Shown: in pieces, positions 4,408 through 33,372 of the stretch | How the letters are laid out: each line of letters begins with the position of its first letter | Position numbering within the stretch: the first letter of the stretch is position 1 | From: Candidatus Poribacteria bacterium | GTDB taxonomy: Bacteria; Poribacteria; WGA-4E; PCPOR2b | DNA: 64,000 bases | Reading direction: 5' to 3' | Assembly (NCBI GenBank): GCA_022822005.1 | Contig: JAJECO010000003.1 | Coordinates: 1-64,000, forward strand | Notes under the pieces: model-generated | Seen by the model: the letters and a program-made list of their open reading frames with translations, nothing else | Told to the model about the DNA's origin: nothing | Databases searched by the model: none | Translations under genes and position numbers: made by a program

Positions 4408-4430
4408 ATCAACATGACACCAAACGAGAT

Positions 4431-4547: not shown

Positions 4548-4776
4548 GACTTTGCACCACCTTTCGATATGATATGATTGAGTCGCTGCTTAGACCTAAA
4601 ATCTGTTCTTGGTCGACGTTGCAACTCCGCTAATTTTAACACACTTAAATCCCATCCTCAAGAAAAACTTCAATCAATTTTCAAATATTCAAATCCATGA
4701 ACAACAGAGACTGATACTGATCTATCAATTTTTATGCCAACTGGATCCTACTACCCCTTTGCAACCCCAAATTTCC

Positions 4777-4805
4777 TTGTCATTAGAGGCTGAGTTTGCT
4801 ATAAT
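4777..4805 (+). promoter_or_regulatory. Sigma-70-type promoter for the lpxL-lpt cluster
   Basis: TTGTCA (4777-4782), a 17-base spacer and a perfect TATAAT (4800-4805). Transcription would start near 4812, only about 4 bases before the best start codon (ATG 4816), so the message would be almost leaderless. Confidence 0.6.
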
Positions 4806-4815
4806 AGAGGCATGT

Positions 4816-6253: not shown

Positions 6254-6902
6254 TTCTGTAACAGTTCCGAGACCCATCGTGGCTTTGCTTTGGGCAGTTG
6301 GCCTGTCTCTTAACGTTCTTATGCTCAGCAACCGTGCGTTTCCCGTCGAAGAACAAGAAGCAGCTCTAGCTCAACAAGAGACAGTAGACGATAACGATCT
6401 TTCAGAAGGGGATGTGATTGACGTTAAGCATGCGGATCGCTTTGAACAACGTGAAAAAGAAGGTGTGACGATCTTTACTGGAAACGTTCAAATCGAAAGA
6501 CCCAATGGCTTCTTGAATGCCGACAAAGTGACCATTTATGAAAACGTCGAAACGAATGAAACGGTAAGAACCGTTTCGGAAGGTAACGTCGAACTTCGAG
6601 ATGGGGATATTTTCGTCACATGTGCTCACGCAACCTTGAACCACCTCACCGATATTATAGATTTTCGTGATGACGTTGTCGTTCTTCAAAATGAGGATCG
6701 GTTAGAAGCGGATAAATTTTCATATAACCGGCGCACCGGAGAACGCTTCGGCGAGGGAAATATAAAGGTTCGGTTTCGTGTCAAGTCCCAAGAGGAACCT
6801 GAGACAGAGTCACAAGAAGAAGAAACCGATCCACAAGGAGAAGAGGTAGTTTCGCAAGAGGAAGAGGAGGAAGAAAGTAGTGGCGGTTCTTCAAACCCGT
6901 GA
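6237..6902 (+). CDS. lptA: LPS transport periplasmic protein LptA
   Basis: 221 residues. An N-terminal signal/anchor segment (IVALLWAVGLSLNVLML) is followed by an OstA-like domain: DVIDVKHADRFEQREKEGVTIFTGNVQIERPNG, ADKVTIYEN, GNVELRDGDIFVTCAHATLNHLTDIIDF, and DRLEADKFSYNRRTGERFGEGNIKV. It would form the periplasmic bridge carrying LPS to the outer membrane. The C-terminal 35 residues are a strongly acidic Glu/Ser tail, longer than usual. The start at 6237 has AAAGG about 9 bases upstream and overlaps the lptC end by 17 bases. Confidence 0.9.
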   Translation: MRLRINSVTVPRPIVALLWAVGLSLNVLMLSNRAFPVEEQEAALAQQETVDDNDLSEGDVIDVKHADRFEQREKEGVTIFTGNVQIERPNGFLNADKVTIYENVETNETVRTVSEGNVELRDGDIFVTCAHATLNHLTDIIDFRDDVVVLQNEDRLEADKFSYNRRTGERFGEGNIKVRFRVKSQEEPETESQEEETDPQGEEVVSQEEEEEESSGGSSNP

Positions 6903-7623
6903 ACTTGTTAAGAGTTATACAAGACGTGGCCCCATTGTTGTCAACCGAGTCAGCCTCGAAGTTGAGACAGGTGAAATTGTCGGTTTGTTAGGACCGAACG
7001 GCGCGGGAAAGTCAACGACATTTTATATGGTTGTTGGACTGATCCGCCCCAATGCGGGGCAGATTATTTATGACGATGAAGACATCACATTTCTACCGAT
7101 GTATAAGCGTGCACGACGAGGAATTGGCTATCTTGCTCAGGAAACCTCTATTTTTCGGAAACTGACAGTTAGACAGAACATCGAATCCATTCTTGAGGTG
7201 CGCAATATTCCCAAAAGCGATCGCGCACAACACAGTGAGCAACTGATGGAAGAGCTTGGCATTTCTGAACTGGCGGATCGTAGGGCATACACCCTTTCCG
7301 GTGGAGAATGTCGCCGTGCTGAAATAGCAAGAGCGTTGGCAGCATCTCCGTCTTTTATTTTATTGGATGAACCGTTCTCAGGTATAGATCCAATTGCAGT
7401 TCAAGATATTAAGCAGCTTATCTTACACTTACGCAATAGAGACCTTGGCGTGTTAATCACAGACCATAATGCGGCGGAAATGTTAGGCATCGTTGATCGT
7501 GCCTATTTGATTACCGATGGACAAATTACGTTAAGCGGCACTCCTGAAGCACTCGTTGAGAGTGAGATTGCTAGGGAACAGTACTTGGGGCATAATTTTG
7601 AACTGCGGCGACCTCGAATATAG
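6880..7623 (+). CDS. lptB: LPS export ABC transporter ATPase LptB
   Basis: 247 residues starting with GTG behind GGAGG, overlapping lptA by 23 bases. All ATPase motifs are intact: Walker A GPNGAGKST (residues 39-47), Q-loop (YLAQETSIF, the LptB-specific form), signature LSGGE (140-144), Walker B FILLDEP and H-loop ITDHN. The family hallmarks GIGYLAQE, SIFRKLTV and NFELR-like C-terminus support LptB over a branched-chain amino-acid ATPase. It powers LPS extraction with LptF and LptG, which are not in the window. Confidence 0.95.
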   Translation: MAVLQTRELVKSYTRRGPIVVNRVSLEVETGEIVGLLGPNGAGKSTTFYMVVGLIRPNAGQIIYDDEDITFLPMYKRARRGIGYLAQETSIFRKLTVRQNIESILEVRNIPKSDRAQHSEQLMEELGISELADRRAYTLSGGECRRAEIARALAASPSFILLDEPFSGIDPIAVQDIKQLILHLRNRDLGVLITDHNAAEMLGIVDRAYLITDGQITLSGTPEALVESEIAREQYLGHNFELRRPRI

Positions 7624-7758
7624 CCCCGGAACCCTATCGGACCATGTTCGCGAGTCATAGGCGCATAGGACCAATTTGATTGCAATAGAGTTACGATGAG
7701 TACCTCAACAGGTTCTTACAAACTTATAAGCTATGCAATCATTTGAGGAGATCAAGTC

Positions 7759-9465
7759 ATGAACTCTGGAATGAGACAAACCGCGAACTTGCAGCACCGG
7801 CTAGTTATGACGCCTAAGCTGCAGCAAGCGATTCAGGTACTTCTGATGTCACGGCTGGATCTGAAGCAGCATCTGAGCCAACAATTGGAGCAGAATCCGC
7901 TTTTGGAGGAGATACCGGAAGATGATGAGATCGAAGAAATCGCCAATTTAGAGGATCTTGATCCAGATGCCCAATGGAACGAACCGGAAGAAATTATCGA
8001 CCGTGAGGATAAAGATCCAGATTTTGACTGGAAGGATTTTTTAGATGACTCCTTCCATCGAGGTGAAAGTGGAGAGTTCGAGCATTGGGAAAATAACGAG
8101 GACCAACGCCCTTCCGATATCGCTGGTTTCCAGACCCTACATAATTTTCTGATGCAGCAACTTAGTGTCGCGCCTTTTTCGGAATCGGATCGAAAAATTG
8201 GTGAACAGATTATCGGCAACCTCGATGATAACGGTCAGTTGCGTGCCAGCCCCCTGTTCGAAATCAATCCATTTGCCCAAAGCTACTTAAACAGTGAAAT
8301 ACTCTCGGAAGACTTGCGCAAAACAATCGAAAAGGGGCTCTGTAAGGCACTTGAAAACAGTGAAATTTCGTTGTCTCAAATTGCGACTATTACTGTAAAA
8401 TCGGACGATAACTGCTGGGTCATAACCGATCCAAAGGACGGTCAGACTTATACGATCAAAAACGAGGATGGCCAGCTAAATCTTTACAGCATCACGCTCG
8501 AGGATATTGCAGATGCTATCGATTGTGATGTGGCCGAAGTAGAAGCTGTTTTGGAGTTTATTCACAACCATTTTGAACCCATCGGAATCGCTTACCGAAC
8601 AATCCCAGAAACCCTTCTCACACAGATGAGAACTGCACAAATTGATAATCCACTTGCGGAAGCGGTTATCCAGTCCCACTGGGATGACTTAACAAATAAC
8701 CACCTACAGCGCATCGCCCAAGGACTTGGGGTACAAGTCAGCGAAATTGTGGAAGTGCGGGAACTAATTGGCACTTTAGATCCCTATCCGGGACGCCACT
8801 TCTCTGACCCAAAAGATCCGAGAGCCCCAGAAACGATCATACCTGATGTGACTGTTGAGAAAGTTGATGGGGAATACCGAATCACCACGAATGACGACGG
8901 TATGCCGCAATTGCGTTTGAACCCAGTCTATATTGATTGGATGACTAACGGACACAAGAACTTAGATGGAAAAACTAAGGAGTGGTTAGAGGCTCGTAGA
9001 ACTCAGGCAAGAGATCTATTACAAAGTATTGTGCAGCGTCGTCAAACAATTGCAATGGTAACGGACGCCATTTTTGAGGTACAGGCAGATTTTTTGGAGC
9101 AGGGAGTTGAGGGGCTTAAACCGTTAGTATTAAAACAGATAGCAGATATGGCGGGTGTCCATGAATCAACTGTCAGCCGGGTCACTTCCAACAAATACGT
9201 CGAGACACCCCAAGGGATCTACAGGTTGAAGTACTTTTTCAGTGGTGAACTCCCGAGCGATTCGGGATCAAATGTGGCTGCAACCACAGTCAAAGAGAAG
9301 ATTAAAAATATGATTGAAAATGAGGATGCAGCGAAACCATTAAGTGATAAGGCGCTCTCCGATGCACTGGAAGCACAAGGGATTCATACGGCAAGACGAA
9401 CCGTTGCCAAATACCGCGAAGAACTTGACATTCTGCCATCTCCCAAAAGGAAACGAAAATGGTAG
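7759..9465 (+). CDS. rpoN: RNA polymerase sigma-54 factor with an internal insertion
   Basis: 568 residues, longer than the usual 430-500. Region I is Gln/Leu-rich (QTANLQHRLVMTPKLQQAIQ). An acidic region II (about 52-100) follows, then the core-binding domain, the HTH (VLKQIADMAGVHESTVSRV) and the RpoN box ARRTVAKYREELDI near the end. Residues about 162-244 form an insertion inside the core-binding domain, between NLDDNGQL and ITLEDIADAI, that the classic protein lacks. The usual FDPPGVGAR reads FEPIGIAYR. GAGGAG precedes the ATG. Its position between lptB and hpf matches the conserved Gram-negative cluster. Confidence 0.95.
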   Translation: MNSGMRQTANLQHRLVMTPKLQQAIQVLLMSRLDLKQHLSQQLEQNPLLEEIPEDDEIEEIANLEDLDPDAQWNEPEEIIDREDKDPDFDWKDFLDDSFHRGESGEFEHWENNEDQRPSDIAGFQTLHNFLMQQLSVAPFSESDRKIGEQIIGNLDDNGQLRASPLFEINPFAQSYLNSEILSEDLRKTIEKGLCKALENSEISLSQIATITVKSDDNCWVITDPKDGQTYTIKNEDGQLNLYSITLEDIADAIDCDVAEVEAVLEFIHNHFEPIGIAYRTIPETLLTQMRTAQIDNPLAEAVIQSHWDDLTNNHLQRIAQGLGVQVSEIVEVRELIGTLDPYPGRHFSDPKDPRAPETIIPDVTVEKVDGEYRITTNDDGMPQLRLNPVYIDWMTNGHKNLDGKTKEWLEARRTQARDLLQSIVQRRQTIAMVTDAIFEVQADFLEQGVEGLKPLVLKQIADMAGVHESTVSRVTSNKYVETPQGIYRLKYFFSGELPSDSGSNVAATTVKEKIKNMIENEDAAKPLSDKALSDALEAQGIHTARRTVAKYREELDILPSPKRKRKW

Positions 9466-17681: not shown

Positions 17682-17801
17682 TTTTATGTCTCCTGTTTAC
17701 TGTAGTTGAGATACATATCGAATTTAGACAGCAGCGTAACTGAGCGTTTTGCTTTAACCATGCTTTTGCTGTTTGGACTCACCACATCTTCGAGAAGGAA
17801 A

Positions 17802-18488
17802 ATGGCATCAAAGATTCTGATTGTGGAAGATGAGCCTGATATTGTTGAGCTATTAGCATACAACTTGCACCAAGCGGGCTTTGAGACCGACGCAGTCCTT
17901 AACGGGGCAGACGCGCTTGAACGGGTCAAAATCGAGCCGCCTGATCTCGTTCTCTTGGATCTATTGCTTCCAGAGGTGGACGGACTGGAAGTCTGTCGCA
18001 CCTTGAAGCGCGATCCTGAGACCGCAGGCATTCCCATTATTATGTTGACGGCAAAAGGTGAGGCAATTGATCGGATTGTTGGATTGGAGTTAGGAGCAGA
18101 TGACTATATCACCAAACCGTTTAGTCCGCGCGAAGTCCTATTGAGAATCCGTGCCGTGCTGCGTCGGGCCCCTAACGTCCCGCGCAGCAAACCTGCAAAC
18201 CAGATCCAGATTGATAACTTAAAGATTGATTTGGACAGACACCAAGTATTCAGCGATGGCGATGTTATTGATCTAACTGCCACAGAGTTCAAAATTCTAT
18301 CTCTATTTGCTCACTCCCCGGGACGTGTCTTCACACGCAGTATATTGATGGATGCGGTTTGGGGGCAGGAGTATTACGGCATTGAGCGCACGATGGATAC
18401 CCATGTAAGTCGTTTGCGGCGGAAGTTGGGAGAGTTTGGAGAACGGATTGAAACAGTGCACGGGGTCGGCTATCGACTCAAGGAGTAG
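17802..18488 (+). CDS. phoB: Response regulator PhoB (OmpR family)
   Basis: 228 residues from MASKILIVEDEPDIVELL; GAAGGAAA precedes this ATG, and the 32 upstream open codons lie in the promoter region. The receiver domain has the acidic pair ED (about 9-10), phosphoacceptor Asp in LVLLDLLLPEVDG (about 53), Thr in MLTAKG and Lys in ITKPFSPRE. The C-terminal winged helix shows IDLTATEFKILSLFAHSPGRVFTR and ERTMDTHVSRLRRKLGE. No histidine kinase PhoR is adjacent. A Pho-type box lies in its own promoter and a strong terminator follows. Confidence 0.92.
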   Translation: MASKILIVEDEPDIVELLAYNLHQAGFETDAVLNGADALERVKIEPPDLVLLDLLLPEVDGLEVCRTLKRDPETAGIPIIMLTAKGEAIDRIVGLELGADDYITKPFSPREVLLRIRAVLRRAPNVPRSKPANQIQIDNLKIDLDRHQVFSDGDVIDLTATEFKILSLFAHSPGRVFTRSILMDAVWGQEYYGIERTMDTHVSRLRRKLGEFGERIETVHGVGYRLKE

Positions 18489-20480: not shown

Positions 20481-23315
20481 ATGAAACAACCGTTTTTGTG
20501 GGTATTAATCATATACCTTTGCTGGTTTCCGTCAACGCTCATCGCACAACAAACTGGAAGTATTGAAGGTATTGTCCTTGATGAAGCAACAGAAGCACCG
20601 ATAGCAGATGTAGCCGTCGTATTGAGCGCGACGCAACAGCACGTATCAACAGATCAGGACGGAGTATTCACTCTCGAAGTCCCTTTAGGCACTTACAACA
20701 TCAGCGTCCGATTTCCTTTCTATCTCACACAGACCCTATCCGGAATTGAAGTCACCGAATCGCAGCCGAAGCACACCCTCCGTGTTATCCTCACCCCTCA
20801 AGTTATTAAGTTAGGACCTATACACCTACCTGTTCGCCTGAGTGAATCTAGTGAAACCGGTCTCTTGGAGAAGCGACGATTAAGTTTCGCCGTCGAAGAT
20901 AGCATCAGCACCGAGTTGATGGCGAAGCTCCCTGTTTCAGACGCTGGGGATGCGCTAAAACGGGTCACCGGTATCAGCATTGTCGGCGGACGATACGTGT
21001 TCGTCCGAGGTCTTGGAGAACGTTATAGCAATACCTTACTGAACAGCGTCCAGATTCCAAGCCCGGAACCCAACCGCCGCGTTGTCCCAATGGATATTTT
21101 CCCCGCAAACCTTCTGGAAAGCCTCCAAACTGTTAAGACCTTCTCTCCCGATCAGCCGGGCAATTTCGCTGGTGGATCCGTACAGGTCTTCACGAAAGAT
21201 TTCCCCGATGCATTCACCATGTCGCTGTCCATGTCTAGTAGCTTTAACACGGAAACGACCGGGGTGGAACTTCTTGGGTATCCGGGCGGTGATTTAGATC
21301 AATTTGGGTTTGACGATGGCACACGTGCACTGCCCGATATTATTGCAGATCAACCAGTGGACGTTCCAATTCGGGAACGCGGACGTTTTACCAGAGGTGG
21401 ATTCACACCAGAGGAGATCCAAGAGTTTGGACAAGCCTTCGACAACGTCTGGTCCCCAGAGAGATACACCGCCCCAGCGAACCAAAGCTATAAGTTCAGC
21501 ATTGGAAATTCTACTCGGCTTATCGGAAAAGATCTTGGGTATTTAGGAATTATTTCATACGGCAACGGACACAGTTATCGCCCGGCAGAAGAGCAGAATG
21601 CATTTCGACTCGGTTTGGATCAGCTTACACCTGTGACGAAATATTTGGTAGAACGAAGCGCCAACGATGTGAGTTGGGGCGGGGTGCTGAACACCAGTAT
21701 GCGTTTCTCGCATGGACATAAGGTGAGTTTGAGGACGCTATATAGTCATACCGCTGAAGATGAAACACGGACATGGGAGGGGTTCAACGCAGATCGCGAC
21801 ACCGATATGCGAAGTTCTCGGCTGCTCTATGTAGAACGCGGTCTTTTTTCCAGCCAGCTTGCCGGCGACCATGAATTCAGGCTTGTCTCGGAAAACCTTA
21901 GTGGAGCATCAGAACCCGCGGAAGAAGGTGATACCAGTGACCTTGAGTTTAAGCCGGTCCCGACGCTTTCTTGGCGTTTGACTTTCTCTCGCGCGGTACG
22001 GAACGAACCTGATACCCGTGAGGTCATTTATGAGAAACGCCGGAATGATTGGCTTTTCCGCGACATCACGCAGAGCGGCAGTCGGTTCTTCTTTGATTTG
22101 GCGGACGATGAAATTAGCGGCAGGCTCGATTGGTCAATGCCAATTGTGACAACGGGATTGTTCAAAGTTGGCGGGATGTGGAGGGATCGTGACCGGACGT
22201 TTGATGCCCGCCGTTTTCGGTTTTTGCCATCCGACAATATTGAGTTATTTCTAGACCGGACTGCCCCTCCAGAAGAGCTGTTTACGGAAGAACATATTGC
22301 CCCCGGTCTCTTTGAGCTTCGAGAATCGACGCGAGCAACGGATAACTACCTCGCCGCACATAGCGTGTGGGCTGGCTATGGCATGATCGATCTGCCGATA
22401 TCGAAGAAGTTTCGGGTGACAACCGGCGCTCGGCTGGAGGTTTCAGATCAGAACGTTACGACTTTTGATCCCTTCGTCGCAGAGCAGGAAGCGATTGAGG
22501 CGAATCTGGATACCACAGATATCCTGCCAAGTCTGAATCTGACATATCGCCTGACGGAGCGGATGAACCTTCGTTTGGCTGCCTCTCGCACAGTGACGAG
22601 ACCAGACCTACGGGAGTTGGCACCCTTCGAGTTCACGGACTTCGTTGGTGGTAGAACAATTTTCGGCAATCCGAATCTTGAACGCACAAAGATCGATAAC
22701 TATGATATCCGTTGGGAGGTTTTCCCACAGTTGGGAGGTGTAGTAGCAATCAGCGGTTTTTACAAGAAATTCCACAAACCGATTGAGCAGATAATCCAAC
22801 CCGCGGCTGAAGTCCGAATCACCTACGAGAACGCAGAAGCGGCGAATAATTACGGGCTTGAATTTGAAGTGCGCCAAAACCTCAGTATCCTTGCTTCAAG
22901 GTTGAGATACCTATCGGTCAACACCAACGTCGCCTTCATATCGTCCAAAGTTGAGCTGCCAGATGTGGGGATTCAGACCTCTTCTGAGCGTGCATTGCAG
23001 GGACAGTCGCCCTACGTTATTAATGCCAGTCTCGGATACGACAATCCCGATTTGGAATTGACCGCCGCAATTGCGTATCATGTCTTCGGAAAACGGATTG
23101 CGGAGGTGGGTAACCACGGCAGCCCCGATGTATTTGAACTGCCACGCTCACAATTGGATGTAACATTTGGGAGACAACTGCTCCCATTTCTCCGTTTGAG
23201 CCTTTCAGCAAAGAATTTGCTGGATCCTGACGTTACCTTGGAGCAAGGTGGCGAAACCTACGTGCGGTATCGCACGGGTCGGACATTCTCGTTCGGCTTG
23301 AGTTACAACCTATAA
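20481..23315 (+). CDS. TonB-dependent outer-membrane receptor with N-terminal CarboxypepD_reg-like domain
   Basis: 944 residues. A signal peptide (to about residue 22, STLIAQQ) is followed by a carboxypeptidase-regulatory-like beta sandwich (GSIEGIVLDEATEAPIADVAV, about 25-110). The plug domain holds SDAGDALKRVTGISIVGGRYVFVRG and GERYSNTLLN. A 22-strand-type barrel ends in RTGRTFSFGLSYNL. Two Pho-type promoters precede it and GAAAAGGAG the ATG. A tonB gene lies 2 kb downstream in the same block. It probably imports a phosphorus source too large for porins, but the ligand cannot be read from sequence. Confidence 0.92.
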   Translation: MKQPFLWVLIIYLCWFPSTLIAQQTGSIEGIVLDEATEAPIADVAVVLSATQQHVSTDQDGVFTLEVPLGTYNISVRFPFYLTQTLSGIEVTESQPKHTLRVILTPQVIKLGPIHLPVRLSESSETGLLEKRRLSFAVEDSISTELMAKLPVSDAGDALKRVTGISIVGGRYVFVRGLGERYSNTLLNSVQIPSPEPNRRVVPMDIFPANLLESLQTVKTFSPDQPGNFAGGSVQVFTKDFPDAFTMSLSMSSSFNTETTGVELLGYPGGDLDQFGFDDGTRALPDIIADQPVDVPIRERGRFTRGGFTPEEIQEFGQAFDNVWSPERYTAPANQSYKFSIGNSTRLIGKDLGYLGIISYGNGHSYRPAEEQNAFRLGLDQLTPVTKYLVERSANDVSWGGVLNTSMRFSHGHKVSLRTLYSHTAEDETRTWEGFNADRDTDMRSSRLLYVERGLFSSQLAGDHEFRLVSENLSGASEPAEEGDTSDLEFKPVPTLSWRLTFSRAVRNEPDTREVIYEKRRNDWLFRDITQSGSRFFFDLADDEISGRLDWSMPIVTTGLFKVGGMWRDRDRTFDARRFRFLPSDNIELFLDRTAPPEELFTEEHIAPGLFELRESTRATDNYLAAHSVWAGYGMIDLPISKKFRVTTGARLEVSDQNVTTFDPFVAEQEAIEANLDTTDILPSLNLTYRLTERMNLRLAASRTVTRPDLRELAPFEFTDFVGGRTIFGNPNLERTKIDNYDIRWEVFPQLGGVVAISGFYKKFHKPIEQIIQPAAEVRITYENAEAANNYGLEFEVRQNLSILASRLRYLSVNTNVAFISSKVELPDVGIQTSSERALQGQSPYVINASLGYDNPDLELTAAIAYHVFGKRIAEVGNHGSPDVFELPRSQLDVTFGRQLLPFLRLSLSAKNLLDPDVTLEQGGETYVRYRTGRTFSFGLSYNL

Positions 23316-23381
23316 AGCGTAAGAAGATTTCTATTTATGTTTCACGCTAAACCTAACTACAAAGAAAGGAAGTTTAATCTA

Positions 23382-24713
23382 ATGAGTAACTTTTTGCTTT
23401 TCCGGTTATTATCGGTCCTGTGCATCTGCCTCGTCCTGCTGTTTGCAGGCTGTGGTGAGGATGAAACCGATGATACCGATAGCACCGATAGCGGCGATGT
23501 CACCACCGCTGAAGAACCGAGTGGTCCAAATATCCTTGAAGGGAAAATCACAGTAGACCTCACCCTAAAAGCAAGCGGTGAATATGTACTACGAGGCGCT
23601 GTGTTTGTGGAGAATGGTGCCACGCTGACGATTGAACCGGGAACTACCATTTATGGTGAAGGTGTTTCCAACGGCACACTTATTATTGCGCAAGATTCAA
23701 AGATTATCGCTGAAGGCACACCGAACGCCCCGATTGTTTTCACCAGCGACGCGCTTGAAGGTTCACGGGGTCGTGGACAGTGGGGTGGTTTGATTATTAA
23801 CGGTCGTGCGCCGAGCAACCAAGGTGTTACATTTGGTGAAGGGGACACAGGTGCCTTCGGTGGGAATAACCCCTCGGATAGCAGCGGCGTTCTCAAATAT
23901 GTCCGTGTCGAATTTGCCGGTATTGAGTTCAGCCCTGATAACGAGTTAAATGGTATTGCTTTCCAAGGAGTTGGTTCTGGTACAGTCGTCGATTATGTGC
24001 AGGTTCACTTTAATCAGGATGACGGTATCGAGATGTTCGGCGGTACGGTCAACATCAAACACGCACTTGTCACAGGTGCACGCGACGACTCCTTCGACTG
24101 GACTGATGGTTGGACTGGCAAGGGACAGTTTTGGATCGCACAGCAACGTGGAGATGAGGCTGATAACGGCTTTGAAAATGATAACAGCAGCAAGAACAAC
24201 GATGCAACGCCGCGGTCTGCCCCAACAATTTACAACGCTACGCTTATCGGTGACCCGCAGGGTCCTACGAGTGATACCGGTATGTTAATTCGTGAAGGCG
24301 CAGCGGGTATCTACCGTAACATCATTGTCCACGGCTTTAAGAACAAAGCTGGGCTTGATATTGATAATGCTTCAACGATTGCTCAAGCGAACAGCGGTGG
24401 TTTGACTGTCCAAAACACTATTTTCTCCAATAATCAGCCGAGTAACTTCGCCGATCCAGACGAAGATTTTGATGAAGCTGCATGGGCGATGGATCCTGCG
24501 TTTAACAACCTTGAGGCGGATGCGAAGTTGCGTAACCCATTCGCTCAGAGTGGTCCAGATTTCCGTCCAGCTGCCGATTCTCCCGCAGTCAACGGTGCGA
24601 TTCCAGTCGCCTCGCCGCCCGGAGATGGCTTCTTTGAACCTGTGAATTTCATCGGTGGAATGGGTCCTAACGATAACTGGACATCAGGTTGGACGACAAC
24701 CGCTCAAAACTAA
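23382..24713 (+). CDS. Beta-helix-type lipoprotein paired with the TonB receptor
   Basis: 443 residues from MSNFLLFRLLSVLCIC, chosen because AAAGGAAG sits before this ATG. Lipobox LLFAGC (Cys about residue 23), then an acidic Asp/Thr linker. The body has repeated beta-helix-type phrases: GAVFVENGATLTIEPGTTIYGEG, GQWGGLIINGRAP, VLKYVRVEFAGIEF, NGIAFQGVGSGTVVDYVQVHFNQDDGIEMFGGTVNIKHALVTGARDDSFDW. It starts 66 bases after the receptor and is probably in the same transcript. Similar proteins often accompany TonB receptors in Bacteroidetes-like genomes; here it may be a surface partner for substrate capture. Confidence 0.85.
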   Translation: MSNFLLFRLLSVLCICLVLLFAGCGEDETDDTDSTDSGDVTTAEEPSGPNILEGKITVDLTLKASGEYVLRGAVFVENGATLTIEPGTTIYGEGVSNGTLIIAQDSKIIAEGTPNAPIVFTSDALEGSRGRGQWGGLIINGRAPSNQGVTFGEGDTGAFGGNNPSDSSGVLKYVRVEFAGIEFSPDNELNGIAFQGVGSGTVVDYVQVHFNQDDGIEMFGGTVNIKHALVTGARDDSFDWTDGWTGKGQFWIAQQRGDEADNGFENDNSSKNNDATPRSAPTIYNATLIGDPQGPTSDTGMLIREGAAGIYRNIIVHGFKNKAGLDIDNASTIAQANSGGLTVQNTIFSNNQPSNFADPDEDFDEAAWAMDPAFNNLEADAKLRNPFAQSGPDFRPAADSPAVNGAIPVASPPGDGFFEPVNFIGGMGPNDNWTSGWTTTAQN

Positions 24714-24717
24714 TTTC

Positions 24718-24776
24718 TAGGTTCAAGGATGTTAAGGATTGAAATATTAACCAATCCTATTTCATCCTTGAACCTA
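24718..24776 (+). terminator. Large nested hairpin after the lipoprotein gene
   Basis: A perfect 14-bp inverted repeat (24718-24731 with 24763-24776) encloses a second stem AGGATTG/CAATCCT (24735-24741, 24752-24758). It lies 5 bases after the stop codon and 14 bases before the next start. No T-run follows, so it could be an mRNA stabiliser or partial terminator separating receptor/lipoprotein levels from downstream genes. Confidence 0.6.
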
Positions 24777-24790
24777 CCTTATCTCATCAC

Positions 24791-25291
24791 ATGAAATGGC
24801 GAATTGTATTAGGAATAATCCTCCTCGTTCTGCTGATCGTATCGATTGGTTGGATTAAAAAAACTTCATGGGCGGGCAGCCTTGATTCTCCCGCTGCCCT
24901 TGGTCATGCTGTGGTCGATGCACTGAATCGTGGAGATGTCGATGGTCTACATCGGTTGAGAGTAAACCGAGATGAATACCTTTCATGGATTTGGCCCACC
25001 TTCCCGGCAAGCCGTCCACCCTATAATTTTACAGCTGATTTTGCATGGTCAAATCTGGATAAAAAATGCGTCCTCGGTGCTAACAGTTGGATTGAACGTT
25101 ATGGACGCCAAGATTTAGTCTTTACAGCTATCCAATTTGATCGTCCAACTGAGGCGTATAAAGGATTTAAGCTGCTACGCGGAACAGTGCTTATAGTACA
25201 GCAAGCGAGTGGTAAGAAAGTCGAATTGAGGATTCTTGGATCTATTGTCAAGAAAGGAAACCGTTATAAACTTTTAAGCTATGAGGATTGA
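24791..25291 (+). CDS. Hypothetical single-pass membrane protein
   Basis: 166 residues. The N-terminal 25 are one transmembrane segment (IVLGIILLVLLIVSIGWI), so the rest is likely periplasmic. The soluble part has ALGHAVVDALNRGDVDGLHRLRVNRDEYLSWIWPTFP and later LRGTVLIVQQASGKKVELRILGSIVKKGNRYKLLSYED, suggesting a small NTF2/SnoaL-like alpha-beta domain, but I cannot assign a family. It lies between a TonB-receptor partner and tonB, 6 bases before tonB, so it is probably co-expressed with them. Confidence 0.75.
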   Translation: MKWRIVLGIILLVLLIVSIGWIKKTSWAGSLDSPAALGHAVVDALNRGDVDGLHRLRVNRDEYLSWIWPTFPASRPPYNFTADFAWSNLDKKCVLGANSWIERYGRQDLVFTAIQFDRPTEAYKGFKLLRGTVLIVQQASGKKVELRILGSIVKKGNRYKLLSYED

Positions 25292-25297
25292 ATAACT

Positions 25298-26314
25298 ATG
25301 AGTGGTTATATTTCCAATTATAGGGCAAATAAGCCCCCCAAAAAGAGAAAGAAAGTAAAGCGTCGAGAGCAGATAGCGAACAGTTCGCCTCTGCCATCTT
25401 CTGGTGGTGGACATGTGTCTGCGTCTCACGTGGGCGGTACTCCTATCAGTGAAATTCAGGGACATACTATATCGAGTCGGACCCAAGGGATACCCAGGCA
25501 GACAGGTAAAAGAGGAGGAGCATTTTTTATCTCGGTTGTGCTCCATCTTGCCGGAGCGTTGATTGCAACAGCGTACGTTGTCCAAGAAAAGATTGCCAAT
25601 GAGGAGTTGGTGCAGGGGGTGCTCCTCAAACCTGCTCCTAAACCGACACTTAAGCGTCGATCTCGCCCACGCATTGCCAAAACTACCACGCCTCGAAAAG
25701 CGATTGCAACGCCTAAACCACAGCTTCAACAAATAGCTACAACTAGTGCCCGGCTTCCAATAGGCAGTGAAAGGTTCACGATTCCTGCTAGCACTCTTTC
25801 TGTTGGAACGATTGGTGAACCTAGCCCCCAACTTGGAAGAGGTTTATTTGCCGGTGCACGTCAGGCACAAGTCGTTGCTGTAACGCCTCAGTTTGAAGCC
25901 CCTCAATTTATGAGTTCATCAATCACCAGTAAGATTGACACAGGAAACAATTTTGAACAAATGGACTTTAATCCGGAGGCGATGGACCCGATTACAGCAG
26001 AACTGAGAGGTGCGACCCAGTCCTTTACGGAGTTTCTCCAGTCGGTCCGGGAAAAAATCAAACGCTCTCAACGCTATCCGCGATCAGTACGAGATTTAGC
26101 TGATGGCAGCGAAGCACAGGTACAATTCACGATTCGGCGTGATGGAAGCCTAATTGACGCTAAAGTTGTCGCGTCCTCCGGCTCCAAATCACTTGACGCT
26201 GCCGCTTTGGCTGCCGTGCGTGACGCTGTCCCCTTCCCATCATTCCCTAAAGGTCAAGAAGGGACAACGCTTCGTCTAGAGATTCCGATCGCTTTTCAAT
26301 TAAAAACTAATTAA
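25298..26314 (+). CDS. tonB: TonB-type energy transducer
   Basis: 338 residues. A cytoplasmic basic N-terminus of about 72 residues, longer than usual, leads to one transmembrane helix (FFISVVLHLAGALIATAYVV, about 76-95). A Pro/Lys-rich periplasmic linker follows (KPAPKPTLKRRSRPRIAK). The C-terminal TonB domain reads REKIKRSQRYPRSVRDL, GSEAQVQFTIRRDGSLIDAKVVASSGSKSLDAAALAAVRDAVPFPSFPKG. It would couple the proton-motive force to the nearby receptor. exbB and exbD are not in the window. Confidence 0.88.
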   Translation: MSGYISNYRANKPPKKRKKVKRREQIANSSPLPSSGGGHVSASHVGGTPISEIQGHTISSRTQGIPRQTGKRGGAFFISVVLHLAGALIATAYVVQEKIANEELVQGVLLKPAPKPTLKRRSRPRIAKTTTPRKAIATPKPQLQQIATTSARLPIGSERFTIPASTLSVGTIGEPSPQLGRGLFAGARQAQVVAVTPQFEAPQFMSSSITSKIDTGNNFEQMDFNPEAMDPITAELRGATQSFTEFLQSVREKIKRSQRYPRSVRDLADGSEAQVQFTIRRDGSLIDAKVVASSGSKSLDAAALAAVRDAVPFPSFPKGQEGTTLRLEIPIAFQLKTN

Positions 26315-26414
26315 TAGATATCAAATCAACAACCTCCATCGGACGCGTTATGGATCTCCACTTGTCCCGATCGAGCCCCTTCTCATAGGGACATATTTCA
26401 TAACACGCTTTTTT

Positions 26415-26445
26415 GTGACAATTTGTGACATTTATGGTATATTTT
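26415..26445 (+). promoter_or_regulatory. Pho-type promoter of the porin gene
   Basis: GTGACA twice (26415-26420 and 26425-26430), with period 10 rather than 11. An AT-rich -10 follows: TATATT at 26438-26443 or TATTTT at 26440-26445. It differs slightly in phase from the other four sites, so the -10 call is less firm. Confidence 0.55.
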
Positions 26446-26513
26446 TAGGTTGAGTGATGTTACACAACTTACCGAAATGTCATTGAACAAAAATGTTACC
26501 GAATGGAGGTCCA

Positions 26514-27539
26514 ATGAAGAACTATTTTCGACGTGGTATCCTATTTCTTATGTGTCTGTTGTTGAGTAGTGCTTCTGTATTATGGGGAGATGAAGGTAGG
26601 ATTAGCGGTTACTTTTTTGGCGATTATTACTACGTGTTGAAGTCCCACAACGCTGAACTTGAGGAGCGGAATGGATTCCAGTATCGGCGCGTCTACTTCA
26701 ACTACGACAAGGATCTGTCAGAAGCATTTTCGATGCGGTTTCGGTTCGAGATGAATGGCGCAGCATTTCCCACAGATCGTCAGAAAATCGAACCGTATCT
26801 CAAAAATGGCTATCTGAGGTGGAAGAAACCTGAGTGGCGGACGAATCTTTATTTGGGGTTATGCAGCAACCCGACCTGGAAGAACGTTGAAAGATTATGG
26901 GGTTATCGCTCTGTTGCCGAAACGCCGCTTCACCTTCACAAAATGGGGAACGGTTCCGACTTTGGCGTGGCATTGCAAGGTGATGTTGACAAATCCAAAA
27001 AGGTTAGCTATCACCTGATATTCGCAAATGGCACCAGCACAAGTGCGGAAATTGATGGCAATAAGAAGGTCGCTTTTTCACTCGCAGCCAAGCCTGTTAA
27101 AGGCCTTATCCTTGAAGGATATGCCGATTTGGAAAACGCTGTGGATCGGGGCAGATGGTACACATTGCAAGGTTTTCTCGGCTATCAACGGGAGCAATTT
27201 CGACTCGGCCTTCAGCTTGCCAATCAGACGCGGGAGCGGGAAGACAAGAACATTTTAGTCAGCTCGGTGTTCGGGTCGGCGCAACTACTCGAAAAGAAGG
27301 TGTGGGCTTTCGCTCGGTTTGATCGGCTGTTCGATCCAAGCCCCGCCGCGAATAAAGGGTATATCCATTTTGATGGTACAGCAGCGCCGAATATGATTCT
27401 TGTCGGGTTGGATTGGAAACCAATGGAAGCGTTAAATATCATGCCCAATCTTGTCTTCGTCTTTTACGATGAACCGGATAGCGGTGCCAAACCTGATGCC
27501 ACAATTATGCCGCGTTTGACAGCATTCTTCAGGTTCTAG
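26514..27539 (+). CDS. Outer-membrane porin, OprP/OprO-like
   Basis: 341 residues from MKNYFRRGILFLM behind GGAGG. Signal peptide to about residue 25 (SSASVLWG). The mature protein is a beta-barrel pattern of alternating aromatic strands: ISGYFFGDYYYVLKS, GFQYRRVYFNYDKDLSEAFSMRFRFEMN, NLYLGLCSNPTWKNVERLWGYRS, ending RLTAFFRF with a terminal Phe. This resembles the phosphate-selective porin family, and the Pho-type promoter plus downstream pst genes agree. Anion selectivity itself cannot be seen. Confidence 0.8.
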   Translation: MKNYFRRGILFLMCLLLSSASVLWGDEGRISGYFFGDYYYVLKSHNAELEERNGFQYRRVYFNYDKDLSEAFSMRFRFEMNGAAFPTDRQKIEPYLKNGYLRWKKPEWRTNLYLGLCSNPTWKNVERLWGYRSVAETPLHLHKMGNGSDFGVALQGDVDKSKKVSYHLIFANGTSTSAEIDGNKKVAFSLAAKPVKGLILEGYADLENAVDRGRWYTLQGFLGYQREQFRLGLQLANQTREREDKNILVSSVFGSAQLLEKKVWAFARFDRLFDPSPAANKGYIHFDGTAAPNMILVGLDWKPMEALNIMPNLVFVFYDEPDSGAKPDATIMPRLTAFFRF

Positions 27540-27661: not shown

Positions 27662-28792
27662 ATGCAATCTCACTTGGAAGAAAATTTGCAGCAGGACATT
27701 GATCTGATTCGCAGCAAAGTTGGCGAGATGGGTGAATTGGTCGAGAAAGCGTTAGAGACCTGTCTGGGTGCGATTGAGCAGAATGATCGACAGTTGGCTT
27801 ATGTTGTGATTTTAAGAGATCGGCATATTGATGAATTAGAGGAGACCCTCGAATCGCTTTGCCAAAGGTTCCTGATCAAGCATCTGCCTGTTGCGAGTCA
27901 AATGCGCTTTGTTTATTCGGTCATCAAGATCAACACCGAACTGGAGCGTGTTGGCGATTATGCGAAATCGATCGCTCGGCGGTTTTTGACTGTCAGTGAC
28001 TTGGGCGCACAGGCTTCCTATCCCAAGCTCATCGATATTGCGAACCTCGCAATTCCGTTCCTCCGTAACGCTTTGCGAGCCTTCAGCGAAAGTGACGCTG
28101 AATTGGCGAAGGCAACGAGGGAAAGAGAAAAAGAACGAGCGATAGATAACCTGCGGTACGAAATTCATCACGATTTAATCCAATTGCATATCCAGAACGA
28201 ACTGCCGTCAGAGGCACTGGTGCCACTGGTAACGGTTGTTAGCTGCTTAGAACGTGTCGCGAATCAGGCAAGCAATATTTGTGAGGAAGTTCTGTATATG
28301 TGTACCGGCGAAGACCTCAGACATGAGTATCAGCAGGTACTGCGAGTGCTTTTTGTTGCCGAGTACGACGCGTGCCGGGGACAGATGGCGGTCGGCATCG
28401 GTAATGCGCTTGAATCACATAGGGTGCTTTTCAGCAGCGCCGGTGTTGCGTCTCAGCCGCTGGATCCAAAAACCGTGCAATTCATGGCGGAAAAAGGGAT
28501 TGATATTTCGGGGCAGAATTCCAAATATTTAAACCAAATCTTAGATCTCAAAGATTATGCAATTATTGTCTCACTCTGTGAGGAAGCGGAAAGAGCACTC
28601 CCGTCGCTGTCATCGAGACCAGTGCGTATCAATTGGGAAGTGCAAGATCCATCAAAACTTGAAGGGACTGAAGAGGAAGTCCAAGCCGCATATCAAAATG
28701 CGTATCAATTTTTAGAAAGACATATCCGAGAATTGGCTCAAGCAATTCTCGGTGACGATATGGAAAAGAGGAAGGTAACTGATGTTCAATAG
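27662..28792 (+). CDS. phoU: PhoU fused to an ArsC/LMW-PTP-like pseudo-phosphatase domain
   Basis: 376 residues; ordinary PhoU is about 220-240. Residues about 1-218 are two PhoU three-helix repeats (IRSKVGEMGELVEKALE, INTELERVGDYAKSIARR, VVSCLERVANQASNICEEV). Residues about 226-365 match arsenate reductase/LMW tyrosine phosphatase: VLFVAEYDACRGQMA, SSAGVASQPLDPKTVQFMAEKGIDISGQNS, DYAIIVSLCEEAE, and a DP loop in WEVQDPSKLEGTEEE. In the P-loop CX5R the catalytic Cys is Ala233, while Arg239 remains; one resolving Cys (C306) is kept, the other lost. It probably binds an oxyanion without turnover. Overlaps pstS by 11 bases. Confidence 0.9.
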   Translation: MQSHLEENLQQDIDLIRSKVGEMGELVEKALETCLGAIEQNDRQLAYVVILRDRHIDELEETLESLCQRFLIKHLPVASQMRFVYSVIKINTELERVGDYAKSIARRFLTVSDLGAQASYPKLIDIANLAIPFLRNALRAFSESDAELAKATREREKERAIDNLRYEIHHDLIQLHIQNELPSEALVPLVTVVSCLERVANQASNICEEVLYMCTGEDLRHEYQQVLRVLFVAEYDACRGQMAVGIGNALESHRVLFSSAGVASQPLDPKTVQFMAEKGIDISGQNSKYLNQILDLKDYAIIVSLCEEAERALPSLSSRPVRINWEVQDPSKLEGTEEEVQAAYQNAYQFLERHIRELAQAILGDDMEKRKVTDVQ

Positions 28793-29690
28793 AATATTGT
28801 GCGTTATCGTTATGGTAGCGCTTTGTTTATTTGTAAATGGATGTTCAAAGAAGGATGAAACGGATGACAAGAGCAAGGACGACAAGGTAGAAAAGCAGGT
28901 AATTCAGAACGCGGGTTCTGATACGATGGTCAATCTTGCGCAGGCGTGGGCGGAGGCGTATGCCACGGTAGAACCCAGTGTATCCATTGAGGTGTCCGGG
29001 GGCGGTTCGGGAACCGGCATCGCCGCACTGACCAGCGGCACTGTTGATATCGCAAATTGTAGCCGTCAAATGACCTCAGACGAAAATGAACGTGTAAAAC
29101 AGAATACCGGCGAATCGCCGAAAGAGTTCATCGTTGGGTATGACGCTCTCGCTGTTTACGTCCACAAAGATAATCCGCTGGCTGAAATCTCCATAGACCA
29201 ACTTGCCAATATCTATGGAGAAGAGGGCGACATAACTGAGTGGTCACAACTCGGTATTGATAATAGCGAGTGCTCCAACGACGAGATTATTCGGATAAGT
29301 AGGCAATCAAATTCTGGGACATTCGTCTATTTTCGTGAGGCGATCCTCGGCAAGAATCGTGACTATAAACTCGGTTCAAGAGATCTACACGGTTCCAAAG
29401 ATGTGGTCGAACTTATCGCACATACGCCGTGTGCAATTGGCTATAGCGGCATGGGGTATGCCACGGAAGAGGTGAAGATGCTGAAAATTGCTAAGAATCC
29501 CGGTGATGCCGCTTATGGTCCTACGGCGCAAGGTGTGCTTGACGGCACGTACCCAATTGCAAGACCCTTGTATATGTATTCACTAGGAACACCAGAACCA
29601 CAGGAACAGTCTTACCTCGATTGGATTTTTTCGCCAACGGGACAGGGGATTGTGGAGAAAACAGGTTACGTGCCCGTCGAACAGAAATGA
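28782..29690 (+). CDS. pstS: Phosphate-binding protein PstS
   Basis: 302 residues. Lipoprotein signal with lipobox FVNGC (Cys about residue 21), then an acidic Lys/Asp linker. The periplasmic-binding fold shows GSDTMVNLAQAWAEAY, SGGGSGTGIAALTSGTVDIANCSR, VGYDALAVYVHKDNPL, QLANIYGEEGDITEWS, ISRQSNSGTFVYFRE and AIGYSGMGYA, covering the phosphate-contacting loops. It delivers phosphate to PstCA. Its start lies inside the phoU-fusion gene, so the fusion protein and PstS are translationally coupled. Confidence 0.95.
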   Translation: MFNRILCVIVMVALCLFVNGCSKKDETDDKSKDDKVEKQVIQNAGSDTMVNLAQAWAEAYATVEPSVSIEVSGGGSGTGIAALTSGTVDIANCSRQMTSDENERVKQNTGESPKEFIVGYDALAVYVHKDNPLAEISIDQLANIYGEEGDITEWSQLGIDNSECSNDEIIRISRQSNSGTFVYFREAILGKNRDYKLGSRDLHGSKDVVELIAHTPCAIGYSGMGYATEEVKMLKIAKNPGDAAYGPTAQGVLDGTYPIARPLYMYSLGTPEPQEQSYLDWIFSPTGQGIVEKTGYVPVEQK

Positions 29691-29748
29691 GTCGCGATAG
29701 ATGTTTGTCGAATCGTGAAGCCGAGACGCCAATGGATAATTGTCAATT

Positions 29749-30657
29749 ATGAAAATAGTCACGAATGTTTTTCACCAACTGGAACGTTGGTGTGAACCAG
29801 TTATCGAAGGAATTATCCGCCTGTGCGGTATCAGTGCAATTATCTTCGTTTTTGGTATATTCTTTTTTGTCTTTCGGGAAGGGATGGGGTTTTTCTTCGG
29901 TGGATTGGACCTCGTTGAGTTTCTCACAAGCCCCGAATGGTATCCTTCCTCTTTGAATAACAAACGCTACGGCGTGTTAGCATTAATCGCAGGTACGTTT
30001 AGTGTGACGGTCTTGGCGATGGTTATTGCCGTACCGTTTGGGCTTGGTGCAGCTATCTTCGTTTCCGAATTCTGTGGTCCCAAGCTGAAGGAAACACTCA
30101 AAATCGTCATCGAGTTACTCGCCGCGATTCCGTCCGTTGTGTGGGGCTTCATCGGGTTGACCGTGATGAACGCACTGATCATCAAGATATTCAACGTGCC
30201 AATCGGTTTGACGATGTTAAACGGCGGCATTATCCTCGCGCTGATGAGCGTGCCTATTATTGTCTCTATCGGTGAGGACGCACTCAAAGCGGTCCCAGAT
30301 TCTTATAGAGAAGCAGCAGAAGCACTCGGTGCAACGCGATGGCAGGTGATTTATCGCGTGTTGTTGCCTACAGCGAAGAATGGATTGCTTGCAGCGGTAT
30401 TATTGGGCGTTGGCCGCGCAGTAGGCGAAACTATGGCAGTGCTAATGACAACAGGACATGCGGTAAACATGCCGACCAGTCCCTTCGATTCTGTCCGCAC
30501 ACTGACTGCCACGATCGCAGCCGAATTGGGTGAGGCAGCGGTAGGAAGTGATCACTATCGGGTCTTATTCATCATCGGCGTTCTACTATTTACAATTACA
30601 TTTATCGTGAACTTTGTTACTGACCTTGTGATTAAAGGAATCCGCGAAAAGGCGTAG
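29749..30657 (+). CDS. pstC: Phosphate ABC transporter permease PstC
   Basis: 302 residues from the ATG at 29749 (a TTG three codons earlier is possible; neither has a strong ribosome site). Six hydrophobic segments are visible, including IFVFGIFFFVFREGMGFFF, VLALIAGTFSVTVLAMVIAVPFGLG and the final LFIIGVLLFTITFIVNFVTDLV. The EAA coupling loop reads REAAEALGATRWQVIYRVLLPTA, with the family sequence GVGRAVGETMAVLM after it. It forms half of the membrane channel with PstA. Confidence 0.95.
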   Translation: MKIVTNVFHQLERWCEPVIEGIIRLCGISAIIFVFGIFFFVFREGMGFFFGGLDLVEFLTSPEWYPSSLNNKRYGVLALIAGTFSVTVLAMVIAVPFGLGAAIFVSEFCGPKLKETLKIVIELLAAIPSVVWGFIGLTVMNALIIKIFNVPIGLTMLNGGIILALMSVPIIVSIGEDALKAVPDSYREAAEALGATRWQVIYRVLLPTAKNGLLAAVLLGVGRAVGETMAVLMTTGHAVNMPTSPFDSVRTLTATIAAELGEAAVGSDHYRVLFIIGVLLFTITFIVNFVTDLVIKGIREKA

Positions 30658-30676: not shown

Positions 30677-31618
30677 ATGGCAACAGATCCAATTCCCTCC
30701 TCTTCCCCCACGGAAATCATTGAACCTCAACTGATGTTCACCGCAACCGAGCAGAGCCGTAAAAAACAGATGGCGGAGAATGTCGCACGCGCCATCTTCT
30801 TCGTGATGACGCTGTTGATGATCTTGCCGCTTGTTCTCATCGTTGTATATCTCTGCGTCAAGGCGGCACCGGTCCTGTCTCCAGAGTTCTTTTTTACGAA
30901 CCCTGCAAAGGGGATGAGAGCCGGCGGTATATGGGCACCGCTGCTTGGAACGATCTATATCGTGATAATTTCACTGCTCGTTTCCGCACCGATCGGTGTG
31001 TTAGCTGCGGTCTATCTGAACGAATATGCCCGTGAAAGTTGGTTCACCCGCATAATCAACCTTGCGGTAGTCAATCTCGCCGGTGTACCGAGTATTGTTC
31101 ACGCACTTTTTGGTGTGGGCGCATTCGTATATTTTGCAAAGATGGGACGTTCGGTTCTAGCCGCTTCTCTCACATTGGCAATTATGACGTTGCCGGTTAT
31201 CATCGCAAGTACGAAAGAAGCGCTCAACGCTGTTCCGATGGCGTTTCGGGAAGCGTGTTGGAATACCGGTGCAACACGGTGGCAGACGATTCGTGGCATT
31301 GTGCTGCCAAATTCAATTAGCGGTATATTGACCGGAATAATTTTACAGGTGTCACGAGCGGCAGGTGAAACTGCACCAATTATGTTTACTGGAGCAGTAT
31401 TCTTTAAGGCTATCTCTGAAGGGGATGTTTTCGCCTACGGTCTGTTAGATCGGTTTATGGCACTCTCGATGCACCTGTACCAACTTTCGACGCAAGTGCC
31501 GGGGGTTCCCGAAGCCTTGGAATATGGCACAGCTGTTGTGCTTTTGGGCGCTGTGCTGATGGTAAATGCGCTGGCAATTGTGTTGCGCGTCTATCTGCGA
31601 TCTCGGAAGCGGTGGTAG
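30677..31618 (+). CDS. pstA: Phosphate ABC transporter permease PstA
   Basis: 313 residues; about 45 N-terminal cytoplasmic residues precede the first membrane segment (AIFFVMTLLMILPLVLIVVYLCV). GMRAGGIWAPLLGTIYIVIISLLVSAPIGVLAAVYLNEYA and the coupling loop REACWNTGATRWQTIRGIVLPNSISGILTGIILQVSRAAGETAPIMFTG are characteristic. It follows pstC by 19 bases. The normal next gene, pstB, is pushed 208 bases away by an inserted MITE. Confidence 0.95.
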   Translation: MATDPIPSSSPTEIIEPQLMFTATEQSRKKQMAENVARAIFFVMTLLMILPLVLIVVYLCVKAAPVLSPEFFFTNPAKGMRAGGIWAPLLGTIYIVIISLLVSAPIGVLAAVYLNEYARESWFTRIINLAVVNLAGVPSIVHALFGVGAFVYFAKMGRSVLAASLTLAIMTLPVIIASTKEALNAVPMAFREACWNTGATRWQTIRGIVLPNSISGILTGIILQVSRAAGETAPIMFTGAVFFKAISEGDVFAYGLLDRFMALSMHLYQLSTQVPGVPEALEYGTAVVLLGAVLMVNALAIVLRVYLRSRKRW

Positions 31619-31825: not shown

Positions 31826-32599
31826 TTGGCACAACTATCTAAATCTACAAAGAAAATTGAAATCGCCGATCTCACTGTTCGGTACGACGGGCTGGAAGCT
31901 CTCAAAGGGATTTCTCTCGATATATACGAGAATGAAATACTGGGAATTATCGGGCCTGCGCAATCCGGCAAAACAACGTTGCTGAAGACAATTAACCGTA
32001 CAATTGAATTCGAACCAAGTGCAGAGGTCAGCGGTTCGGTGAGCATCGATGGCACAGATATACAGAGCATCAGAAATGTCAACCAACTGCGCCGGCGAAT
32101 TGGTATGGTCTTTCCGCTGCCGGTTGGTCTGCCCATGTCTATTTACGATAATGTCGCCTTCGCCCCCCGGACAGCGGGTATCCGCAAGCGGAGCGAGTTA
32201 GACGAACTTGTTGAGCGTTGTCTTAAACAGTCAGCATTGTGGGATGAGGTAAAGGATCGACTCGATAGCCTTGGCACAAAATTGTCGGGTGGACAGCAGC
32301 AACGTCTGACCATCGCCCGTGCCCTCTCACACCAACCTGAGATTCTCTGTCTGGACGAATTTTCGATTGCCGTCGATCCGGTAACCACAATGCGAATCGA
32401 GGACATCCTTAAAGAATTACGCTCCCAGATTACCATCATTCTCGTCACCAATTTGGTTCAACAAGCACGCCGTTTGGCAGACCGCACCGCATTTATATTT
32501 GAGAGTAAACTCATTGAAATCGACGAGAACGATGTTATCTTCTCTGATTCACCGGCGCACAAACTAACCTACGATTACGTGCATGGAAACTTCGGATGA
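31826..32599 (+). CDS. pstB: Phosphate ABC transporter ATPase, asymmetric subunit 1 (intact signature)
   Basis: 257 residues, apparently from TTG at 31826 with no ribosome site; an in-frame TAA belonging to the MITE end lies 21 bases upstream. The signature LSGGQQQR (153-160) and Walker B ILCLDE (173-178) are intact. Walker A is altered (GPAQSGKT, 43-50), the Q-loop Gln is Pro97 (VFPLPVGLPMS), DEP is DEF, the D-loop is IAVD, and the H-loop His is Asn209 (LVTNLVQQA). It should not hydrolyse ATP well at its own site but can donate LSGGQ to a partner. Overlaps the next gene by 4 bases. Confidence 0.88.
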   Translation: MAQLSKSTKKIEIADLTVRYDGLEALKGISLDIYENEILGIIGPAQSGKTTLLKTINRTIEFEPSAEVSGSVSIDGTDIQSIRNVNQLRRRIGMVFPLPVGLPMSIYDNVAFAPRTAGIRKRSELDELVERCLKQSALWDEVKDRLDSLGTKLSGGQQQRLTIARALSHQPEILCLDEFSIAVDPVTTMRIEDILKELRSQITIILVTNLVQQARRLADRTAFIFESKLIEIDENDVIFSDSPAHKLTYDYVHGNFG

Positions 32600-33372
32600 G
32601 CGCAGATAAAAATTACAGCATCGAGACCAACCAACTTAATCTGTGGTACGGTGACTTTCAGGCACTTATCAATGTAAGCGTGAAGGTTCCTAACGGTTTG
32701 ATAACCGGGCTCATTGGTCCCTCTGGCTGCGGTAAAACTACATTGCTGCGCTGTTTCAACCGGGTGAACGAACGCTACGGCAACGTCACGACGACCGGCA
32801 AGGTCGAGATACTTGGTAAAAACATCTACGATGCGGACGTTTCACTGACGGAACTTCGCAAGAATGTCGGCATGGTATTTCAACGCCCAAATCCTCTGCC
32901 GATCTCCGTTTACGAGAATATCGTTTTCGGTCTGCGCGTCCACTCCGAACAGCGGATACGGAAAAAGTCGGAAACTGATGAGATCGTTGAAGCGGCGTTA
33001 AGAGAAGTTTTTCTTTGGGACGATCTAAAAGATCAGCTAAAAGTAAAGGCAACCACTTTGCAGCTCGAACAGCAGCAGAAACTGTGCATCGCCCGGCTGC
33101 TGCCGCTGAAACCGCGGGTGATCCTGATGGACGAACCGTGTTCTGCCCTTGATTCTAAAGGGACAGGTACGGTTGAAGAGTTGATGCTTGAGCTTACCGG
33201 TCAATACACCATTTTAATTGTTACGCACAATATGGCGCAGGCTCGCCGTGTGAGCGATGAATGTATCTTTATGCTGCTCGGCGAGATTATCGAGCACAGC
33301 CGTACCGAAGATCTGTTTCTCACGCCTCAGAACACAAAGACAGCGGACTATATCGAAGGACGGTACGGATAA
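32596..33372 (+). CDS. pstB: Phosphate ABC transporter ATPase, asymmetric subunit 2 (degenerate signature)
   Basis: 258 residues. Walker A GPSGCGKT (41-48), Q-loop Gln96 (VFQRPNPLP), Walker B VILMDE (175-180), D-loop SALD and H-loop His211 (VTHNMAQA) are all intact. The signature LSGGQ reads LQLEQ (155-159), followed by QQK, so it cannot complete a partner site normally. With the preceding subunit this gives one canonical composite ATP site (Walker motifs here, signature from subunit 1) and one degenerate site. The ATGA overlap (32596-32599) favours equal synthesis. Confidence 0.92.
   Translation: MSADKNYSIETNQLNLWYGDFQALINVSVKVPNGLITGLIGPSGCGKTTLLRCFNRVNERYGNVTTTGKVEILGKNIYDADVSLTELRKNVGMVFQRPNPLPISVYENIVFGLRVHSEQRIRKKSETDEIVEAALREVFLWDDLKDQLKVKATTLQLEQQQKLCIARLLPLKPRVILMDEPCSALDSKGTGTVEELMLELTGQYTILIVTHNMAQARRVSDECIFMLLGEIIEHSRTEDLFLTPQNTKTADYIEGRYG

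Follow-up and report, generated by a model that had tools for sequence, protein, structure and literature searches.

A PhoU protein fused to an ArsC-fold domain without its nucleophilic cysteine heads a pst operon with an asymmetric PstB pair in Candidatus Poribacteria

The DNA analysed here, referred to as the window, is a stretch of 64,000 nucleotides from a Candidatus Poribacteria bacterium. Its plus strand carries a pst operon that opens with an unusual phoU gene, an open reading frame encoding 376 aa (27662..28792), the product of which scores above the TIGR02135 cut-off for PhoU and also matches TIGR02691 and PF01451. The interval 28335-28792, to which a first-pass annotation had assigned the fusion, is the C-terminal part alone of this frame. 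The end of the gene is overlapped by the start of pstS, encoding a phosphate-binding lipoprotein (28782..29690; TIGR02136, 236.8 bits, cut-off 206.6), and the permease genes pstC (29740..30657; TIGR02138, 287.1 bits, cut-off 196.45) and pstA (30677..31618; TIGR00974, 259.7 bits, cut-off 193.45) follow on the same strand. As PstS, PstC and PstA all exceed their NCBIfam cut-offs, the system is identified as a Pst phosphate transporter. Two ATPase genes, pstB1 (31826..32599) and pstB2 (32596..33372), also on the plus strand, complete the operon. The order phoU*-pstS-pstC-pstA-pstB1-pstB2, with the fusion gene phoU* first, recurs in all complete fusion loci, which bears out the link to Pst genes drawn in the first-pass annotation. 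An arsenic-operon context was considered and rejected, as the fusion loci are pst operons; the Cys-bearing ArsC of the window's genome sits on a separate contig (C89).

The region directly upstream of the operon (20481-27539) encodes TonB-dependent-receptor-like, lipoprotein-like, TonB-family (with a match to TIGR01352) and porin-like proteins, and these are possibly outer-membrane uptake genes. The gene directly upstream of the fusion (26493..27539, plus strand) was recognized by eye from its sequence as encoding a porin-like outer-membrane protein; it had no NCBIfam match, and its synteny in L003-L006 indicates conservation in the genus. A PhoB-like response regulator lies about 9 kb upstream (17706..18488, plus strand), where the match to TIGR02154 (17802-18479) reaches 252.8 bits, below the cut-off of 296.2. 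PhoR-like kinases, likewise below the equivalog cut-off, are encoded on other contigs of the same genome.

The PhoU domain occupies residues 8-218 of the fusion protein (27683..28315, plus strand). Over these residues the TIGR02135 equivalog score is 153.3 bits (cut-off 130.25), and the helical-bundle fold of PhoU is recovered by Foldseek, with TMt 0.90-0.94 to 2i0m, 4q25 and 1t72. In the full-length AlphaFold2 model (pLDDT 86.8) the N-terminal part resembles PhoU structures and the second part ArsC, while the placement of the two domains relative to each other is uncertain (pTM 0.59). No PhoU other than the fusion was found in the window's genome; many fusion genomes also possess a second, ordinary PhoU. 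The second-repeat PhoU motif reads SCLERVANQ (28241-28270), in contrast to RRFERVADQ or the like in most relatives, and its Arg and Asp are both altered in the window's genus (ERVAN versus ERVAD). The fusion frame is intact in congeners with one exception: in L029 (G005:C84:11583-12679) the final residues lie in a different frame, through either a frameshift or an assembly error.

The C-terminal part, residues about 226-364 (28337..28753, plus strand), matches PF01451 (LMWPc) over residues 229-358 with 42.8 bits against a gathering score of 23.2. Among solved structures, B. subtilis ArsC 1jl3 is closest in sequence (E 4e-15), and the AlphaFold2 model of this part (pLDDT 89.7) agrees with 1jl3 at TM 0.82/0.90. 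The arsenate reductase profile TIGR02691 (arsC_pI258) is also matched (E 4e-22), at 78.7 bits and thus under the equivalog cut-off of 174.3 that delimits the curated family. By descent and by fold, the domain belongs to the LMWPc/ArsC superfamily. In place of the C-X5-R P-loop, the sequence has A233-E-Y-D-A-C-R239 (28358..28378, plus strand), where A233 replaces the nucleophilic Cys that characterizes both ArsC and the LMW protein tyrosine phosphatases. The redox pair of ArsC is also broken: C306, the equivalent of Cys82, is present and L313 replaces Cys89. Of the six distinct Poribacteria sequences, four have Cys and two have Ser at position 306. The general-acid DP motif, D329-P330 (28646..28651, plus strand), is kept, with Asp in 33 and Pro in 40 of the 43 fused domains compared below, and is an inheritance from ArsC along with the SAG motif and W325. 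The first-pass annotation had described a PhoU joined to an ArsC/LMW-PTP-fold domain with a P-loop devoid of its nucleophile, a surviving DP motif and one resolving Cys; it read the P-loop correctly, the fold comparison upholds its domain assignment, and the two remaining points hold for the window's protein. Judging from the residues present, catalysis of the known ArsC or LMW-PTP kind is excluded because the nucleophile is lost.

Is the loss of the catalytic Cys a local accident? A scan of GTDB species genomes, with patterns taken from the query itself and thus favouring close relatives, yielded 20 fusion loci (L003-L022, of which two are truncated at the edge of a contig) in Poribacteria, KSB1, Deltaproteobacteria, Verrucomicrobia and Calditrichaceae. 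Profile searches gave further fusions in the Verrucomicrobia and KSB1 phyla and in the phyla of the deltaproteobacterial L007 and of the Calditrichaceae locus. Within Poribacteria (85 genomes searched), the fusion was present in six genomes, all of the window's genus; the PhoU proteins of other Poribacteria families are without an ArsC-fold domain. Once identical sequences were dropped, 43 fused domains could be aligned with 49 unfused relatives. All 49 unfused sequences have Cys at position 233 and none of the 43 fused ones does (Asp 34, Ala 6, Ser 2, Glu 1), with the proviso that a fusion with an intact Cys might be missed if it scored under the E-value limits applied (1e-22 to 1e-29). Relatives that retain Cys, which the first-pass annotation had named as the sign of a merely local mutation, are therefore absent from the set, and its suggestion that Ala233 might be conserved holds within the window's genus and fails elsewhere, where Asp predominates. 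Arg239 is found in 22/43 fused domains versus 48/49 unfused ones, with Leu replacing it in 12 of the 21 that lack it. Both Cys82 and Cys89 are present in a single fused domain (1/43) versus 45/49 of the unfused. Local mutation or pseudogene formation is rejected on the grounds that the frame is intact in all congeners but one, the absence of Cys is family-wide and dN/dS is about 0.1. As a separate observation, two loci encode unfused ArsC-like proteins of 146 residues (L082:1432-1869 and G069:C84:16511-16846); the P-loop of the former reads VSDQNTCRS, without Cys at the nucleophile position, and may represent a second dead ArsC lineage.

In a tree of these domains every fused sequence falls on one side of a single branch (SH-aLRT 100), a topology obtained from few columns, with the P-loop and 306/313 columns left out and some fused rows long-branched; it is consistent with one origin of the fusion family. 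Within the genus, pairwise dN/dS lies at 0.09-0.13 in the dead domain, against 0.07-0.12 in the PhoU part, which indicates that the ArsC-fold domain is under purifying selection. F257, S259 and W325 are invariant across the 43 fused domains. Conservation that sets the fused domains apart from unfused ArsC is seen at F257 (43/43), F274 (41/43), K278 (36/43) and in a C-terminal helix near L358, A361 and G364; F257, F274, K278 and this helix are candidate places to seek a new binding face.

The ATPases of the operon are also unusual. PstB1 (TIGR00972, 280.8 bits) retains intact Walker A, Walker B and LSGGQ motifs, and has Pro for the Q-loop Gln and Asn for the H-loop His. PstB2 (326.1 bits) retains Walker A, Walker B, the Q-loop and the H-loop, and its signature is changed from LSGGQ to LQLEQ. 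Both scores lie below the cut-off of 343.2, so that by score and by motif content alike neither protein is a canonical PstB. Complementary motif losses in both partners were found in 37 of the 41 fusion loci examined; L012, L017 and L154 end at contig ends, and L148 is without PstB2 in the next 2.4 kb. A canonical PstB was seen in none of the 41 loci over the stretch read. The PstB2 signature also occurs as LLLEQ, LQLDQ, LSLDQ and LSLEK, at one locus each. A search of 289 genomes of the Verrucomicrobia phylum with the pattern LQLEQQQKLCIAR matched all four fusion genomes and only two others. In an ABC dimer, one subunit contributes the Walker, Q and H motifs to an ATP site and its partner contributes the signature, so that a PstB1-PstB2 dimer is predicted to contain a complete site alongside a degenerate one.

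The asymmetric pair is not confined to fusion loci. In two Verrucomicrobia-phylum genomes (L140 and L141, in G243 and G297) it is followed by an ordinary, separate downstream PhoU without an ArsC domain, and four Poribacteria of another family combine it with a separate PhoU. Two further Poribacteria families (f1, G006; f2, G009) have an ordinary single PstB adjoining PhoU. A strict two-way dependence between the fusion and the asymmetric pair is rejected, as the pair occurs with separate PhoUs, and the ArsC-fold domain is therefore not required for the pair. The asymmetric pair is a wider feature, and the fusion is found only inside the range of the asymmetric transporter. The Pst operons of those four Poribacteria (L171, at 832-8700, L172, L173 and L176) contain an extra permease-like gene and a third PstB-like ATPase, and so have three permease-like and three ATPase genes; the third ATPase has Arg or His for the Q-loop Gln and Asn for the H-loop His.

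What could be the role of a dead arsenate reductase domain on PhoU? With somewhat less than even confidence, we favour a non-catalytic docking or tuning domain, on a PhoU that works beside a PstB1-PstB2 heterodimer with one complete site, since Asp mostly occupies the nucleophile position and half of the family lacks the Arg. PstB1 and PstB2 would heterodimerize, the complete site being formed by the Walker, Q and H motifs of PstB2 with the LSGGQ of PstB1 and the other site being degenerate. The PhoU part would dock on the PstB pair and on a kinase of the PhoR type, as PhoU reportedly does with PstB and PhoR in E. coli (PMC4423584), and the pseudo-ArsC domain would be a binder that fixes or tunes this docking. 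Its former pocket and the added C-terminal helix might then offer a face to a protein partner, be it PhoU itself or, more probably, the ATPase pair or the sensor kinase. Against a reading restricted to docking stand the SAG motif, W325 and DP motif inherited from ArsC, with which the pocket could still take a small ligand.

The retained pocket is the starting point for other explanations. The first-pass annotation proposed an oxyanion sensor, in which cytosolic phosphate or arsenate would be held by the Cys-less P-loop and the signal relayed to PhoU. Cys-to-Ala phosphatases are trapping mutants, and the loop of the window's genus, with its small Ala233 next to a retained Arg239 and D329-P330, is similar. 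Since a neutral residue, the Arg and the DP Asp are kept, oxyanion binding is possible for the Poribacteria members, and to this extent the proposal survives; as the function of the family it does not, because an oxyanion should be repelled by Asp at position 233 (34/43) and the Arg is gone from 21/43, making anion binding unlikely as a family-conserved trait. The precedent from M. smegmatis cuts both ways: PhoU itself has been proposed as a cytosolic Pi sensor there, but the proposed binding site lies in helix 6 of PhoU proper, with no additional domain of this kind (PMC12301784). We consider the sensor unlikely on balance. Another possibility is that the pocket switched from an anion to a cation or another ligand, held by an acidic cluster of Asp233, an acidic residue 234 and Asp329; judged by eye, this cluster recalls the two acidic residues that follow strand 1 in receiver domains. 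Asp or Glu occupies position 233 in 35/43 fused domains and at least two of the positions 233, 234 and 329 are acidic in 41/43, but all three are acidic in just 14/43, and Ala233 in the window's genus and Ser-Lys in Calditrichaceae do not fit the cluster; we regard this switch as distinctly improbable.

A natural substrate-trapping pseudophosphatase, holding a phosphorylated protein such as PhoR or PhoB, would account for an LMW-PTP fold that has lost its nucleophile and in most members kept the DP motif, and the genomes do encode PhoB-like and PhoR-like proteins. The nearest relatives of the domain are, however, arsenate reductases rather than protein phosphatases, and the phosphoryl-binding Arg is often absent, so we attach little credence to a phosphoprotein binder. 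Loss of the catalytic residues and drift at several positions are what a functionless remnant of the fusion would display, but that explanation is already contradicted by a dN/dS of about 0.1, by the invariant F257, S259 and W325 together with the newly conserved residues, and by retention of the domain in several phyla, and it seems scarcely tenable.

Taken singly, PhoU, the ArsC fold, Pst and degenerate ABC sites are familiar; for the combination of them the open-access literature yielded no precedent, and the searches returned no description of a PhoU-ArsC fusion, of PhoU with an LMW-PTP domain, of degenerate PstB or of Poribacteria PhoU. How PhoU senses phosphate and relays between Pst and PhoR is unresolved, and attempts to isolate the full complex had failed (PMC4423584). 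In the loci described here separate genes would encode the two ATP sites and PhoU carries an extra domain, so that each could be altered alone and the PhoU relay put to the test; confirmation would establish a pseudoenzyme-based regulator of phosphate control together with an asymmetric Pst importer. A bolder proposal, which we advance as a conjecture more doubtful than probable, is that these loci represent a separate class of Pst importers in several phyla, with an obligate PstB1-PstB2 pair hydrolysing at one site and a PhoU whose dead domain monitors either the degenerate site or a ligand in the cytosol. If this is true, the dead arsenate reductase domain of that PhoU would couple transport to signalling.

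Each component of the system departs from its known counterpart. Over residues 8-218 the fusion shares sequence, fold and pst linkage with PhoU (TIGR02135; 4q25, 2i0m, 1t72, 1sum), but it has about 150 additional residues of ArsC fold, its gene is the first in the operon, and in the window's genus the second motif is ERVAN. With the thioredoxin-coupled arsenate reductase ArsC of the pI258/B. subtilis type (1jl3) it has the fold and the SAG and DP motifs in common, whereas it has neither the nucleophilic Cys nor Cys89, Cys82 is found in some fused members only and the P-loop Arg is gone in half. Two adjoining pstB genes in one pst operon are also present in E. faecalis, where both PstB1 and PstB2 possess every motif (PMC12096839); in the fusion loci, by contrast, each PstB lacks motifs kept by its partner. 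The predicted site composition is the same as in ABC transporters with one degenerate site, which include heterodimeric exporters and the fused importers RbsA and NupO (PMC11466899), but here it would arise from two distinct genes of a Pst phosphate importer that occurs together with a PhoU regulator.
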